This document shows positions 5,737 through 61,801 of a DNA stretch of 64,000 bases, piece by piece. Below the pieces are notes generated by a model. The model saw only the letters and a program-made list of their open reading frames with translations. It had not been told where the DNA came from and ran no database searches. How positions within the stretch are numbered: the stretch's first letter is position 1; the number at the start of each line of letters is the position of its first letter. Source of the DNA: Candidatus Zixiibacteriota bacterium. Its GTDB lineage: Bacteria; Zixibacteria; MSB-5A5; WJJR01. Location of the stretch: NCBI GenBank assembly GCA_040752595.1, contig JBFMGX010000004.1, positions 1 to 64,000 of the forward strand, given 5' to 3'. The position numbers and the translations under genes were made by a program.

Positions 5737-5830
5737 CCCTCACCCTGACCCTCTCCCGGAGGGAGAGGGCGAACACAACCTCTCCCCTCGGGAGAGGTCG
5801 ATCCGTCCGGGGGACGGATCGGGTGAGGGA
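5737..5830. repeat. interspersed palindromic repeat, family B
   Basis: Reads CCCTCACCCTGACCCTCTCC, a central hairpin around AACCTCTCCC, then GGTCGATCCGTCCGGGGGAC and GGATCGGGTGAGGGA. Copies or parts occur at 11583-11699, 26089-26220, 31478-31552, 36625-36673, 41262-41315 and 61604-61681. Here it separates the regulator and kinase genes of one cluster. Confidence 0.9.
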
Positions 5831-5863
5831 GCTCTTCCGTACTCTCGTTTCGTTGATAGACCC

Positions 5864-10119: not shown

Positions 10120-10826
10120 GACTTGGCCTCTCTCATACCGATTTCCTCATGTATACGCGCCGCCGCCGTCCCCAGTTGGAGCAGCCAGAGATAGAGCAGG
10201 AGGAAACCGATTGTCGACGTGACGAACACGACCGCCACCTGAGCCGACATCGTCGGCTTGGTGGCCGCCGCCGTGACCACCTGGTTGGCGTCCTCGTGCA
10301 GCGACCGATAGAGCCGCGGCAGGACGAAGAACAACAAAGGGGAGATCGCACCCCCAAAGATCAGATAGACCGCCGACAGCCGCCTCCGGGCCTCGACATT
10401 CACTGTTGCCTGCCGTAGCGCGAAGAAGGCGCCATAGAACAACACCAGCGCGAACAGGAACAACTGCCTGGGGTCCCAGTTCCAGTAGGCCCCCCACGCC
10501 TGCTTGGCCCACAGCGACCCGGTGATCATCGCCACCACCGAGAAGATCATTCCCAGTTCCGCCGACGTCGCCGCGACCCGATCGTGCGCGGCCGCGCGCG
10601 TGCGCAGATAGGCGATGGCAAAGGCCGCCGCGACCATGAACGACAGGAACGACACCTGCGCCATCGGCACATGGAAATAGAACAGCCGCGAGGCATCCCC
10701 GCCCGACGCCATCGCCGTCAACGGCGGCGGCGTCAGAAACGCCGCAACAATGACGGCAGTGATCAGAATGACGGCTCCGACTTTGACGAATATCACGCTT
10801 GCCCTCCCCGCCCAATCAGGGTCCAT
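10116..10826 (-). CDS. ccmC: heme exporter/transfer protein CcmC
   Basis: 236 residues with six predicted membrane helices. The heme-handling signature WGAYWNWDPR sits at about 110-119, with the flanking conserved string FYFHVPMAQVSF near residue 50 that carries one of the axial His candidates; a second His is in YRSLHEDAN. CcmC loads heme onto CcmE. It lies between ccmB (36 bp gap) and ccmD (4-nt overlap) in a leftward operon. Length fits the family. The C-terminal segment (VVFVTSTIGFLLLYLWLL) is a normal last helix. Confidence 0.96.
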   Translation of the reverse strand: MDPDWAGRASVIFVKVGAVILITAVIVAAFLTPPPLTAMASGGDASRLFYFHVPMAQVSFLSFMVAAAFAIAYLRTRAAAHDRVAATSAELGMIFSVVAMITGSLWAKQAWGAYWNWDPRQLFLFALVLFYGAFFALRQATVNVEARRRLSAVYLIFGGAISPLLFFVLPRLYRSLHEDANQVVTAAATKPTMSAQVAVVFVTSTIGFLLLYLWLLQLGTAAARIHEEIGMREAKS

Positions 10827-11582: not shown

Positions 11583-11699
11583 CCCTCACCCCGACCCTCT
11601 CCCTGAGAGGGAGAGGGGGGTGATAACCTCTCCCTCCGGCATGCCCTGAGCGAAGTCGAAGGGGAGAGGTCGATCCGCCGTAGGCGGATCGGGTGAGGG
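11583..11699. repeat. interspersed palindromic repeat, family B, inside the ccm operon
   Basis: Long copy: AGCCCTCACCCCGACCCTCT, an AACCTCTCCC centre, an extra CCCTGAGCGAAGTCGAAGGG stretch, then GGTCGATCCGCCGTAGGCGG and ATCGGGTGAGGG. It lies between ccmB and ccmA, starting 61 bp upstream of the ccmB start, and ends 14 bp beyond the ccmA stop. Confidence 0.9.
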
Positions 11700-23276: not shown

Positions 23277-26072
23277 GTGACCACGCCCGCACCCATCGAT
23301 GACCGCACACTGTCGCGCCTCCTCGACCGCGTGCAGAAACCCGGCCGTTACATCGGCGGCGAGCTGCACCGCGCGGTCAAAGGCCCACAGACGGTCGCGA
23401 TTCGTGTCTGCCTCGCCTTTCCCGATTCCTATGAAATCGGGATGTCGCATCTCGGGCTGCGCATTCTCTATGCGCATCTGAATGCCGACGCTCGGATCTT
23501 CGCCGAACGGACCTACTGTCCCTTCCCGGACATGGAGACGCTGCTGCGGCAGAATGGCCTCCCGCTGTTCTCCTGGGAGACCCGTACACCGCTGTCGTCC
23601 TTCGACGTCGTCGGCTTCTCCCTGCAATCGGAGATGACCCACACCAATGTCCTGACCATGCTCGACCTTGGCGGCATTCCGCTCCATCGTCAGGAACGCC
23701 GCGAGGACGATCCCATCATCGTTGCCGGCGGCCCGGTCGTGTTCAATCCCGAGCCAATGTCGGACTTTATCGACGCCTTCATCATCGGCGATGGGGAAGA
23801 GGCATTCGCCGCATTCCTACATGGTAACCACTCACTCAAGCAACAGGGGATCCCGCGACGGGAACGACTGCGCCGTCTCGCTGGGGAAATCACCGGCCTG
23901 TATGTTCCCGCCCTCTATCCCACACGCACCGACCCAACAACCGGTTTCGTCCATGTTGCGCCGGGCGATGCGGCGCCCTATCCTGTGCGCAAGGCGCTCG
24001 TCGACGATGTCAACCGTTTCCCGTTCCCGGCCGACATCCTCGTGCCGCAGGGAGACATCGTCCACGACCGTGTCGCCGTCGAGATCGCGCGCGGCTGCAC
24101 CGAGGGATGCCGGTTCTGCCAGGCGGGGATCATCTACCGCCCCGTGCGCGAGCGCACGCCGGCGTCGATTGTCCAGACGATCATCGCTGGCATCGACAAG
24201 ACCGGCTTTGAAGAGGCATCGCTGACTGCGTTGTCGACCGCCGACTATTCCTGCGTGACGCCTTTGGCCAAGGCGGTGATGGCGGAGTTGCAGGTGCGTC
24301 GGGCGGCGATGTCGGTCTCCTCGTTGCGCGTCTATGGCGTCACCGAGGAATTGGCGCGCGAGATTGCCAAGGTCCGCAAAACCGGCTTCACGATCGCTCC
24401 GGAGGCGGGCACACAACGCATGCGTGATGTCATCAACAAGGGGATCACCGATGAGAACATCGACACCGCCGCCGAGATCGCCTTTGCCAATGGCTGGACC
24501 CGTCTGAAACTCTACTTCATGATCGGCCTGCCGACCGAGACCGACGAGGATGTTCTCGGCATCGCCGACATCGCCATTCGCGTCTGGCGCATCGCCAAGC
24601 GCCATGGGGTGGGGCGCGCCTCGGTCGTCATCTCCGTTTCATCCTTCGTTCCCAAGGCGCATTCGACCTTCCAGTGGGTGGCCTTTGACGATCCCGACCA
24701 TCTGCGTCGCAAGCAGCGGTTGCTCGCCGACCGCCTGCGACCCTTCCGCGCCATTGAACTGAAATGCCACGAGGTCCGCCTGTCGCGTCTCGAGGCAGTC
24801 TTTTCCCGTGGTGACCGCCGTCTGGGCAAAGTGATCGAGAGCGCCTGGCGCCACGGCGCCCGTTTCGACGAGTGGACCGATTACTTCCGCGAAGAGAACT
24901 GGACCGCCGCCTTTGCCGCCTGCCATCTCGATCCCGATCAGTTCCTCCCGGCCTTGCCCATTGCGGAGCCGCTGGTCTGGGATCACATCGACTCCCGCGT
25001 GACGAGGGACTTCCTCCTGAAGGACCTGCGCAAGGGACTGGCCGCTCGCTTCTGGCATCCCTGCGAGAAGCCCTATCTTCCCAAGCGGCACAATCCACCC
25101 AAGACCAAAGAGGGGATTACGAAGCTGGTCTGCTACGACTGCGGCGTCGACTGCGACCTCAAGGCCATCGCCATCGAACGAGAGCAGGCCGGAGCCTCGG
25201 CAGATCATCTGGTTCTCGAGAAGAATGCCATGCTGGACCGCATCGGCCGCGACAAACTCCCGCAGCCGGTCGCTCCCGAGTCCGGCGAGTTCCCGGAAGA
25301 GCGATCCGACCGCTGGGATCGTGTCGGCGCCGGGCCCGGTTCGCAGCCGTTCGCCCCGACACCGGGACCGCTGTATCGCTATCGTCTCTGTTACTGCAAG
25401 GCCGGTCTGTCACGCTACCTGTCGCATCTGGAGGTTGTGCGGCTGTTCCACCGTGCCTCGCGACGCGCGCAACTCCCGGTGGCGTTCTCCGGGGGCTTTC
25501 ACCCGCACCCGAAGCTCTCCTTCGGTCCCGCTCTTCCGGTCGGGGTCGCCGGTGATCATGAATACCTCGACGTAGAACTGACAGAGGACTGGCCCACCGA
25601 GCGGCTGGTTGCGACGCTGAATCGACATCTGCATGAGGGGTTCGCCCTGCGTGCCGCGGTGAGACTGCATGTTGGCGATCCGGGCATCGAGGCGCTGATC
25701 GACCACTTCGACTACTTGGTTGAATTCGACTCCCGCGCGCTGGCCGATCTGATTGGCGCCGGCCCATCGCTTGACACACGTCTGCGGTCCAAACTTGCCA
25801 ATGGCGGCTGGACCATCGAGCGCACCATCGAAGGCCGCCGCAAGACGATCAACGCCGCCGAGTTTGTCGATCATTGGGAATTCGCCACTCCGAATGGCAC
25901 GACACGATGGCGGGTGACACTCCTTTCCAAGGCGGGACGCTCGGTCAAGCCGCGCGAGCTGGTCGAATCGCTCCTCGGCGCCTGGCCCGATGGCACCATC
26001 ATCACACGGTCGCGCATGGGCCGTCTCATTGACGATCGATTCCTTACACCGATGGAAACCGCGACGGCATGA
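23277..26072 (+). CDS. B12-binding-type radical SAM protein fused to DUF2344 domain
   Basis: 931 residues. The N-terminal part (about 1-640) matches the TIGR03960 type: an Rossmann-like N-domain with AFPDSYEIGMSHLGLRILY, then a radical SAM core with GCTEGCRFCQAGIIYRP (CX3CX2C near 274-281). A CysX3Cys pair (YDCGVDCDLK) closes this part. The C-terminal 230 residues are a DUF2344/TIGR03936 domain (RYRLCYCKAGLSRYLSHLEV, FSGGFHPHPKLSFGPALPVG). In many bacteria these are two adjacent genes; here they are one. The biochemical function is not settled. The start is GTG at 23277. The stop overlaps the mtaB ATG by 4 nt. Confidence 0.9.
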   Translation: MTTPAPIDDRTLSRLLDRVQKPGRYIGGELHRAVKGPQTVAIRVCLAFPDSYEIGMSHLGLRILYAHLNADARIFAERTYCPFPDMETLLRQNGLPLFSWETRTPLSSFDVVGFSLQSEMTHTNVLTMLDLGGIPLHRQERREDDPIIVAGGPVVFNPEPMSDFIDAFIIGDGEEAFAAFLHGNHSLKQQGIPRRERLRRLAGEITGLYVPALYPTRTDPTTGFVHVAPGDAAPYPVRKALVDDVNRFPFPADILVPQGDIVHDRVAVEIARGCTEGCRFCQAGIIYRPVRERTPASIVQTIIAGIDKTGFEEASLTALSTADYSCVTPLAKAVMAELQVRRAAMSVSSLRVYGVTEELAREIAKVRKTGFTIAPEAGTQRMRDVINKGITDENIDTAAEIAFANGWTRLKLYFMIGLPTETDEDVLGIADIAIRVWRIAKRHGVGRASVVISVSSFVPKAHSTFQWVAFDDPDHLRRKQRLLADRLRPFRAIELKCHEVRLSRLEAVFSRGDRRLGKVIESAWRHGARFDEWTDYFREENWTAAFAACHLDPDQFLPALPIAEPLVWDHIDSRVTRDFLLKDLRKGLAARFWHPCEKPYLPKRHNPPKTKEGITKLVCYDCGVDCDLKAIAIEREQAGASADHLVLEKNAMLDRIGRDKLPQPVAPESGEFPEERSDRWDRVGAGPGSQPFAPTPGPLYRYRLCYCKAGLSRYLSHLEVVRLFHRASRRAQLPVAFSGGFHPHPKLSFGPALPVGVAGDHEYLDVELTEDWPTERLVATLNRHLHEGFALRAAVRLHVGDPGIEALIDHFDYLVEFDSRALADLIGAGPSLDTRLRSKLANGGWTIERTIEGRRKTINAAEFVDHWEFATPNGTTRWRVTLLSKAGRSVKPRELVESLLGAWPDGTIITRSRMGRLIDDRFLTPMETATA

Positions 26073-27628
26073 AAGCACGGCAAGATTTAACCTCTCCCTC
26101 CGGCGATGTCCCGAACGGAGTGAGGGGGAGAGGTCGATCCGATCCGCCGCGGCGGATCGGATCGGCTTGCCCTGAGCGACCTGTCCTGAGCGCAGTCGAA
26201 GGAAGTCGAAGGGGTGAGGGAGTTCGTCGCGCCTCCTTCTACACCCTCGGCTGTCGCCTCAACCAGGCCGAGACTGCGCTGATCGCCGAACAGTTCCGCA
26301 CGTCCGGCTATGCGATTGTCGAGCACGGCGCGGCCGCCGATGTCGCCGTCATCCACACCTGCTCGGTGACCGAGCATGCCGACGCCCGTTGTCGCCAGGA
26401 AATCCGCAAGGCCAGGCGTCGTTCTCCCGATGCGTTGGTCTGCGTCGTCGGCTGCTATGCCCAGGCCGAGCCGGGAACAGTCGCGGCCATTGACGGCGTC
26501 GATCTGATCGTCGGCAACGACCGCAAATTCGCGCTGGCGGATCTAATCGGCGTAGCAATCGCCGCCCGCAGCGGTGTGCCGGTCAGCCCTTGGGCTGACG
26601 TGGGCACGGCAGGCCGTGCCCTTACAAGGCAGCCAACGGTGCTTGTCTCGCCCCGTCCCGATGCGACCGAGATCGAATACCCGATGGCCGGATACTACCC
26701 GCATCAGACCCGTGCCAACATCAAGGTCCAGGATGGTTGCGACTTCTGCTGCGCTTTCTGCATTCTACCACGGATTCGTGGCCAGGCGCGTTCGCGTCCC
26801 CTCCCCGACATCATCGCCGAGGGTCACGAACTGGCCCGCCGCGGCCACAAAGAACTGGTGATCACCGGCGTCAACGTCGGCACGTATGCGAGCAACGGTC
26901 ACACCCTCGCCGATGTCGCCCGTTCCCTGTCGGGTATCCGTGGCGTGGCGCGTGTTCGTGTGTCATCGATTGAACCATCAACCGTCAGCGATGATCTCCT
27001 GCGCTGGATGGCCGAATCGCCGGCGGCATGCCGCCATCTCCATCTCCCCCTGCAATCGGGTGACGACCGTGTCCTCTCCCGTATGAAACGCGTCTACACC
27101 ACATCCGAATACGCCCGCTTTATCGACAAAGTGAAGACCATGATCCCCGATGTCGGCCTGGGCACCGACATCATGGTCGGCTTTCCCGGCGAATCCGAGC
27201 GCGGATTCGCGAACACCGTTCGCTTTGTCTCGGAACTTCCCTTCTCATACCTGCATGTATTCTCGTATTCCGACCGTCCCAAGACCGCCGGCCTGTATCT
27301 CTCCGACAAATGCTCCCCGGACGCGATCAAAGAACGCTCCGCGATCATGCACGACCTCGCCGCCTGGAAAAAGCAGCGCTTCTTCGCCGATCACATCGGC
27401 CGCACCGTCGAGGTCCTCTTCGAGACCGTCGACACCGACGGCTGGCGCAAGGGCTTCACCGGATCGTATCTTCGGGTGGGAGTGCCGCCGGATCACGCGC
27501 GGGAGAATGATCTGAGCGACACGATTGTAGCTGGGATCGACTCCGACTTCTGCCGCGGTGCAGGGGCACCGCGTGTCGAAGACCCCGAGCGAAGCCGAGA
27601 GGCCGTGCCATCAACCAGTGAAATCTGA
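26069..27628 (+). CDS. mtaB: tRNA threonylcarbamoyladenosine methylthiotransferase, with in-frame repeat insertions
   Basis: 519 residues, longer than the usual 420-450. It has the MTTase N-domain (ASFYTLGCRLNQAETALIA; HTCSVTEHADARCRQEIRK; VVGCYAQ), the radical SAM cluster DGCDFCCAFCILP (CX3CX2C) and a TRAM-like end. It adds methylthio to t6A37 of tRNAs. The ATG overlaps the previous stop (ATGA). After the first seven codons the frame runs through a complete family B repeat (26089-26220) and only then reaches the conserved N-terminus. A second palindrome pair (26582-26621) lies in the linker before the radical SAM domain, and a third (27554-27573) in the C-terminal tail. All keep the frame open, and the catalytic motifs are intact. 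Confidence 0.93.
   Translation: MKARQDLTSPSGDVPNGVRGRGRSDPPRRIGSACPERPVLSAVEGSRRGEGVRRASFYTLGCRLNQAETALIAEQFRTSGYAIVEHGAAADVAVIHTCSVTEHADARCRQEIRKARRRSPDALVCVVGCYAQAEPGTVAAIDGVDLIVGNDRKFALADLIGVAIAARSGVPVSPWADVGTAGRALTRQPTVLVSPRPDATEIEYPMAGYYPHQTRANIKVQDGCDFCCAFCILPRIRGQARSRPLPDIIAEGHELARRGHKELVITGVNVGTYASNGHTLADVARSLSGIRGVARVRVSSIEPSTVSDDLLRWMAESPAACRHLHLPLQSGDDRVLSRMKRVYTTSEYARFIDKVKTMIPDVGLGTDIMVGFPGESERGFANTVRFVSELPFSYLHVFSYSDRPKTAGLYLSDKCSPDAIKERSAIMHDLAAWKKQRFFADHIGRTVEVLFETVDTDGWRKGFTGSYLRVGVPPDHARENDLSDTIVAGIDSDFCRGAGAPRVEDPERSREAVPSTSEI
26089..26220. repeat. interspersed repeat, family B, inside the mtaB coding sequence
   Basis: AACCTCTCCCTCCGG...GGGGGAGAGGTCGATCC, a GATCCGCCGCGGCGGATC palindrome, a CCTGAGCG...AGTCGAAGG unit and GGGGTGAGGG end. 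The 132 bp (44 codons) stay in frame with mtaB. Confidence 0.9.
26582..26621. repeat. two adjacent palindromes inside mtaB
   Basis: GTCAGCCCTTGGGCTGAC (26582-26599) and GGGCACGGCAGGCCGTGCCC (26602-26621). The first is nearly identical to the intergenic GTCAGCCCAAGGGCTGAC at 29161-29178, marking it as a mobile-type repeat rather than coding conservation. Confidence 0.8.
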
Positions 27629-31465: not shown

Positions 31466-31477
31466 TCTGTCTCAGAT

Positions 31478-31552
31478 AACCTCTCCCTCCGGCTCGCCCC
31501 GAGCGAAGTCGAGGGGGAGAGGTCGATCCGCCGGAGGCGGATCGGGTGAGGG
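31478..31552. repeat. interspersed palindromic repeat, family B
   Basis: AACCTCTCCCTCCGGCTCGC, CGAGCGAAGTCGAGGGGGAG, then AGGTCGATCCGCCGGAGGCG and GATCGGGTGAGGG. Between murI and smpB. Confidence 0.88.
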
Positions 31553-41261: not shown

Positions 41262-41315
41262 AACCTCTCCCTCCGGGAGAGGTCGATCCGTCCGGAGGAC
41301 GGATCGGGTGAGGGA
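41262..41315. repeat. family B repeat between kinase and regulator genes
   Basis: AACCTCTCCCTCCGGGAGAG GTCGATCCGTCCGGAGGACG GATCGGGTGAGGG. A short copy with all core parts. Confidence 0.88.
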
Positions 41316-41322
41316 GCCTTGT

Positions 41323-54150: not shown

Positions 54151-54558
54151 TCACTTCCTGCCGGGGTCGCTGTCCTTGGCCTTCGTGTCCGCGGCAGCGG
54201 TTGCACCGGGGCCTGCACTGACACAGCTCGCGGACGCATGCATGGGACAGGAATCACCATGGCCAAGCCCTGCCTTGCTGCTCTGCCCGGCATGGCCACC
54301 CTTGCACTTGTCCTTGCACTCGCATTTGCACTTGTCTTTGCACTCGGCCTTGCACTTGTCTTTGCACTCGGCCCTGCACTTGTCCTTGCATTCGGCTTTG
54401 CACTCGGTCTTCCCGTCGTGCTTGCACGTCTCCGCGCATTTCGCCTTGCAGTCCTTCTGGCCGGATTTCTCACAGGCCATGAGGGCCGTCGCCGAGGTGA
54501 CGAACACGGCGAACAGAAACACGAGCGCCGACGCTATGATGCGGTTCCTTAGGTTCAT
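54151..54558 (-). CDS. exported Cys/Lys-rich repeat protein
   Basis: 135 residues. Signal peptide (RNRIIASALVFLFAVFVTSA TALA-like), then about 60 residues in which Cys appears almost every fourth position: CKAKCAETCKHDGKTECKAE, CKDKCRAECKDKCKAECKDK and CKCECKDKCK. The tail is Gly/His/Ser/Ala-rich with two more Cys. About seventeen mature-part Cys and many Lys and Glu suggest binding of metal ions or clusters outside the cytoplasm, but no family is recognised. AGGAGA precedes the ATG. Another Cys/His-rich exported protein is encoded 69 bp upstream. Confidence 0.8.
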   Translation of the reverse strand: MNLRNRIIASALVFLFAVFVTSATALMACEKSGQKDCKAKCAETCKHDGKTECKAECKDKCRAECKDKCKAECKDKCKCECKDKCKGGHAGQSSKAGLGHGDSCPMHASASCVSAGPGATAAADTKAKDSDPGRK

Positions 54559-61603: not shown

Positions 61604-61681
61604 TAACCTCTCACTCCGGCAGCGTCCCGAACAGAGTGAAGCAGGGAGGTCGGTCCGTCCGCAGGACGGACCGGGTGAGGG
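61604..61681. repeat. interspersed palindromic repeat, family B
   Basis: AACCTCTCACTCCGGCAGCG, GAGGTCGGTCCGTCCGCAGG, GGACGGACCGGGTGAGGG. Diverged copy after secA. Confidence 0.8.
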
Positions 61682-61801
61682 ATCTTCTTCGGCCAGACAG
61701 TAATCCGCGGGTCGGGTACCCTGTGCACCTGACCGGGTTCTCCGGAGCGCAGGGCTTCTGAGCCACAGGCCTGCTCCAGCAATAGAGGTCGTGTCACAGC
61801 A

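Follow-up and report, generated by a model that had tools for sequence, protein, structure and literature searches.

The mtaB gene lies on the plus strand of a 64,000-nucleotide stretch of DNA (the window) from contig C4 of a Candidatus Zixiibacteriota genome (G000), a 2.94-Mb assembly in 50 contigs. The features of the gene and of its upstream neighbour are the following.

23277..26072, plus strand: upstream gene, a TIGR03960 and TIGR03936 fusion, whose stop overlaps the mtaB start
26069..27628, plus strand: mtaB, tRNA t6A37 methylthiotransferase, TIGR01579 equivalog; 519 codons including three repeat-encoded blocks
26069..26072, plus strand: ATGA start/stop overlap, the upstream stop being 26070-26072
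26089..26220, plus strand: N-terminal F1 element in frame; adds about 44 codons and is found in no relative
26120..26122, plus strand: GTG in frame inside the repeat, with about 36 repeat-encoded residues still left
26252..26254, plus strand: Cys62, first MTTase Fe-S ligand, invariant in a 38-sequence alignment
26360 and 26453, plus strand: further MTTase cysteines, Cys98 and Cys129, respectively
26575..26601, plus strand: linker REP 1 (F11: TGTGCCGGTCAGCCCTTGGGCTGACGT), 27 nt identical to a copy that brackets a RAYT in G000 (C16)
26600..26626, plus strand: linker REP 2 (F3: GTGGGCACGGCAGGCCGTGCCCTTACA)
26738..26761, plus strand: radical SAM CxxxCxxC motif (Cys224, Cys228 and Cys231)
27555..27609, plus strand: tail repeat, F3-like stem plus nested CCCCGAGCGAAGCCGAGAGG module, contributing about 17 codons

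The protein matches the TIGR01579 (MtaB) equivalog with 388 bits against a cut-off of 357, the match beginning at residue 57, and contains the Pfam domains UPF0004 (residues 56-149) and Radical_SAM (residues 218-387). Genes were called with a home-made dicodon model. Seven members of one bacterial family (G000-G006, G000 included) were compared; G002 is in the same genus as G000, and G005 and G006 have a genus in common. Repeat families are numbered, F1 being family B of a first-pass annotation of this DNA and F4 being SERSEES.

That annotation had placed the ATG of mtaB over the preceding stop, as the ATGA tetranucleotide confirms, and had described three palindromic repeats in frame within the gene. 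All three are present, but only the N-terminal one is family B, the linker and tail repeats being of other kinds. The pair that it placed between the MTTase domain and the radical SAM domain is made up of two palindromes lying side by side in the linker, and a search with both (26575-26626) gave 39 matches in G000, each palindrome having many near-identical copies. The third block lies in the tail as described; a single copy, at C4:330005-330058, matches it with 91% identity over 55 nt, and the matches elsewhere are short and partial. A single repeat family at all three sites was rejected because the sequences differ, there being at least three kinds of repeat. The peptides that they encode include RQDLTSPSGDVPNGVR and SGVPVSPWADVGTAGR. 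A repeat was also sought in the interdomain linker of the upstream TIGR03960/TIGR03936 fusion gene, and none was found there.

In about 100 MtaB proteins drawn from many phyla, the linker, measured from the VGxDxK motif to TRANIK, has 31-50 aa and most often 38-43. It is long in five of the seven family members: 60 aa in G000, 68 in G005, 71 in G006, 77 in G003 and ~104 in G001, the last length being obtained by joining two contig ends, in frame, on a 9-nt overlap. The linker of G004 has 40 aa and no insert; that of G002 has a readable, repeat-free start followed by a break. The inserts are as follows.

G000: F11 and F3
G001: F10, GGGCGAGGCTCCTGCCGAGCC
G003: SERSEES (F4)
G005 and G006: F5, AAGGGGCTTAAAGCCCCTT

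F5 and F10 each have more than 40 matches in their own genomes. Because G005 and G006 belong to one genus and have one insertion type, the sequences point to at least four independent linker insertion events, all of them in frame. Together with the N-terminal and tail blocks there are six insertions that keep the frame, for which the expectation from length alone, were the frame irrelevant, is ~(1/3)^6 or roughly 0.001, a simple estimate for a gene that was picked after the fact. Repeats seem to have landed in the linker more than once, with the protein tolerating them. The first-pass annotation had proposed checking whether related MtaB proteins lack the blocks, and had taken the same blocks, conserved in amino acids, as the contrary case. 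The blocks are absent from the related MtaB proteins, which have no N-terminal block and whose linkers, where occupied, hold other repeats.

Y1 transposase genes were present in nine of nine genomes searched. Copies of F11 bracket a RAYT at G000:C16:26178-26369, one of these copies matching the mtaB linker exactly over 27 nt, and a second F11-bracketed RAYT is found at G004:C29. RAYTs are bracketed by F5/F2 at G000:C49 and G005:C66 and by F10 at G005:C28, and F6 and F8 likewise bracket RAYTs. Six of the seven proteins tested scored above the cut-off of the NF047646 profile ('REP-associated tyrosine transposase'), and the F5-linked RAYT of G005 fell below it (58.5 of 80). Three of the four families that invaded the linker (F11, F10 and F5) look like RAYT-linked REPs. 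No RAYT examined was flanked by SERSEES on its two sides, and bracketing by F1, sought at 46 Y1 transposase positions in the seven genomes, was not found, although one-sided F1 matches lie near two of them. With respect to end tags, F8 begins with GTAG, the ends of F3 are GTAG or GTAA-like, and F11, F10, F5 and F6 have no clear GTAG; no target-site duplication was demonstrated for the inserts. A set of REPtrons can also be recognised in Zixibacteria, each RAYT gene having a palindrome family of its own on both sides (F2/F5, F6, F8, F10 and F11).

Repeats within genes are rare in these genomes, although repeat counts vary with the fuzzy patterns used. In 464 kb of G000, the various pattern sets identified between 78 and 83 repeat loci; 74 of the 83 are intergenic, and by a two-sided coding test the mtaB linker is the only repeat within a gene. 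The same is true of the 22 repeat loci in 386 kb of G005, a sample in which the mtaB contig was included deliberately and in which 346 kb of other contigs contained no intragenic repeat. Over the ~850 kb from the two genomes, with ~100 repeat loci, the mtaB linker alone is intragenic by this test, which is blind to the N-terminal F1 copy of mtaB since the start is too near; the coding status of that copy therefore rests on the relatives. Only 4 of 74 repeats lie between divergent genes, though such gaps make up 27% of the intergenic length (families pooled). General colonisation of coding DNA by the repeats was considered and rejected, the other matches inside genes being weak, chance ones and the stricter two-sided test leaving only the mtaB linker. 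Elsewhere in the window, a 12-nt tandem repeat (CTTTGCACTCGG-like) occurs as an array of ten overlapping copies at 54276-54455, which may be a coding repeat of low complexity.

The N-terminal block starts after the 'MKARQDL' of MtaB and comprises three consecutive stem-loops (26090-26134, 26135-26164 and 26166-26218), for which RNA folding gave -71.7 kcal/mol with a z score of -3.9. When the 2.94-Mb genome was searched with this block at E<=1e-3, F1 gave 45 matches, the mtaB copy counted, and a consensus made from the other copies gave 44. The layout of the element is AACCTCTCCCTCCGG-(optional nested hairpin)-GGGAGAGGTCGATCCG-hairpin-CGGATCGG-(optional nested hairpin)-GTGAGGGAG, and the mtaB copy is a composite with nested hairpins. 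Compared with a MITE, which has terminal inverted repeats and a target-site duplication, F1 has ends (AACCTCTCCC and GGTGAGGGAG) that are not clear inverted repeats, and no duplication was demonstrated for it. Full-length F1 is expanded in G000 only, and its second half is found in two genomes of the same genus. The identification of the 44 codons as a family B repeat with five intergenic copies holds, all five having been located in the window.

5777..5832, plus strand: intergenic F1 copy
11622..11699, plus strand: intergenic F1 copy
31475..31552, plus strand: intergenic F1 copy
41262..41317, plus strand: intergenic F1 copy
61605..61684 (start approximate), plus strand: intergenic F1 copy, diverged

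Among 54 copies read with their flanks, 53 are extragenic and the mtaB copy is the only coding one; with other families in the linker and the tail, the claim that this repeat family colonises coding DNA is not supported. Two further properties of F1 were observed. (i) At G000:C4:1-240000 (window included), where the GC skew of the contig is negative, 18 of 19 copies are in plus orientation whatever strand the flanking genes use, and the orientation is even further along; this bias is a hint that insertion is coupled to one of the replication strands, in the manner of IS200/IS605-like mechanisms. (ii) The loops of F1 contain nested hairpin modules (CTTGCCCCGAGCGAAGTCGAGG-like), some of them even inside one another (window 26166-26218 and L162:2638-2739), which suggests successive insertion of hairpins into hairpin loops.

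The best explanation of these structures, and one that we hold to be likely, is that short multi-copy hairpin DNA elements inserted three times into a functional mtaB and were kept at permissive sites. The F11 REP of the linker would most likely have been placed by RAYT-mediated single-strand transposition, because copies of the family bracket a RAYT in G000. The F1 element would have landed ~16 nt past the upstream stop and, since mtaB begins within this stop, would have become coding. Insertions preserving the frame and sparing the Fe-S core would then have survived because the N terminus, the interdomain linker and the tail are, presumably, structurally permissive. We infer that the added peptides are produced and that they are likely to be disordered and neutral or almost neutral; the N-terminal hairpins, at -72 kcal/mol, could lower expression.

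A stronger claim, which we regard as doubtful, is that the linker is a true hotspot, where different RAYT-mobilised REPs would be favoured by the site, either as a single-stranded target or through a benefit at the domain border, with the REPs supplying the linker. It is rather improbable that the linker inserts are adaptive or regulatory, their hairpins tuning translation and co-translational folding, or that the linker is a sequence-specific RAYT target. The use of one linker by four families within one bacterial family is what such a role might produce, as is the position of the linker as the only intragenic match among ~100 repeat loci of two genomes. However, the families differ in sequence and in their RAYTs, insert length and peptide vary, no common target motif was identified, and two of the seven family members have no insert.

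Insertion into translated sequence, as favoured here, also has to be weighed at the N terminus against an untranslated repeat, which would form a 5' regulatory hairpin between the two genes with mtaB starting downstream. The other F1 copies (53 of 54) lie outside genes, a distance of ~16 nt past the upstream stop is typical of REPs, and PMC3733652 cautions that mis-annotation accounts for many of the intragenic REPs at N termini. The start codons make this reading unlikely. The MtaB proteins of G002-G006 are repeat-free and begin 5-11 residues ahead of SFYTLGC (SFHTLGC in G002), from a start that overlaps the upstream stop (ATGA in G002, G003, G005 and G006 and GTGA in G004), and this native start is retained in G000. 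When an in-frame ATG, GTG or TTG was sought ahead of the first catalytic cysteine, the only one besides the native start was the GTG at 26120, and none can be read in the sequence from there to Cys62. Active MtaB must therefore contain repeat-encoded residues. A start at a GTG in the repeat, which the first-pass annotation had raised, is available, but its product would still bear part of the repeat; a start downstream of the repeat is ruled out for ATG, GTG or TTG products that retain the first cysteine.

Equally unlikely is decay of mtaB in G000, of which the inserts would be a sign of lost constraint. Three inserts in one gene would be in keeping with decay, as would a break in G002, of the same genus, that deletes the radical SAM cysteine motif. 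In contrast, the 519 codons of the G000 gene are open with three insertions all in frame, and the linker inserts of G001, G003 and G005/G006 are also in frame. Of the 79 columns that are near-invariant (>=97% conserved) among 37 other MtaB proteins, the G000 protein keeps 78, the sole change being N to H before TCSVT, which G001 and G004 share. As the first-pass annotation had stated, the blocks keep the frame open and the catalytic cysteines are intact, all six Fe-S ligands being present. An AlphaFold2 model has a mean pLDDT of 85.8, mostly >90 in the domain core, and values <50 at residues 1-49, 173-183 and 516-519, which fall within the repeat peptides. The simplest reading is that G000 MtaB would be a working enzyme with disordered additions. 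The lesion in G002 (C131, ~10130-10190) is a deletion or frameshift and may represent a pseudogene or an assembly error. An assembly artefact arising from repeats in a draft genome is very improbable because, although G000 is a 50-contig assembly and G001 breaks exactly in the linker, the inserts lie within a 514-kb contig with the frame kept, no other copy found is the same as the N-terminal or the tail one, and the linker expansion recurs in separately assembled genomes.

If the repeats are in-frame insertions, as we favour, the mtaB linkers amount to a replicated natural experiment, in which one conserved enzyme would have received, in one linker, at least four independent in-frame insertions from different families, and candidate transposases for linker repeats are identified in G000 or related genomes. 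In a phylum that has been little studied and is known from metagenomes, this would tie REP/RAYT dispersal to the evolution of protein linkers, and it would provide a clean system for asking if a REP in frame is useful, harmful or neutral.

A literature search on MtaB linker insertions gave nothing relevant, and the comparison is with repeats in other genes. The first-pass annotation had likened the mtaB blocks to the Rickettsia RPEs (Ogata et al. 2000, 2002, as presented in PMC5896051 and PMC3733652), palindromes through which functional housekeeping proteins gain peptide in frame. The likeness, one of behaviour, holds in that peptide is added in frame to a protein-coding gene, at the terminus, the domain border and the tail; the large intragenic share expected of an RPE is not seen in F1, which is coding in 1 of 54 copies, and the closest kind is the RAYT-linked intragenic REP. 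The QMITE of Coxiella (PMC5896051) are miniature elements that now and then extend proteins in frame, but they are longer, have another structure and have no RAYT link. In the REP/RAYT systems, REPtrons and REPINs described in PMC2817692, PMC3116915 and PMC8266576, palindromes bracket a Y1 tyrosine transposase gene and are dispersed genome-wide. F11, F10 and F5 resemble these in being multi-copy and RAYT-bracketing; F11, F5/F2, F10 and F6 differ in having no clear GTAG tag, and F1 and F4 in that no RAYT neighbour was found. The GTAG/CGTC REPs of PMC3733652 (Di Nocera et al. 2013) are short multi-copy palindromes that are mostly intergenic at 3' ends, avoid divergent gene pairs and are linked to RAYT transposases. 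In-frame intragenic REPs are already described there: rare ones are reported in conserved housekeeping genes (uvrA, recB and tRNA pseudouridine synthases) of several species, at times two in one gene, with different REPs at about the same recB site in two Xanthomonas species, and flexible linkers are proposed as a location. The Zixibacteria repeats are similarly mostly intergenic, scarce between divergent genes and in frame within a tRNA-modification gene. Neither methylthiotransferases nor Zixibacteria are mentioned in the main text of that paper, and what is added here, relative to the REPs it describes, is the presence of at least three kinds of repeat in one gene, the use of one linker by four families, and the matching RAYTs, in Zixibacteria.
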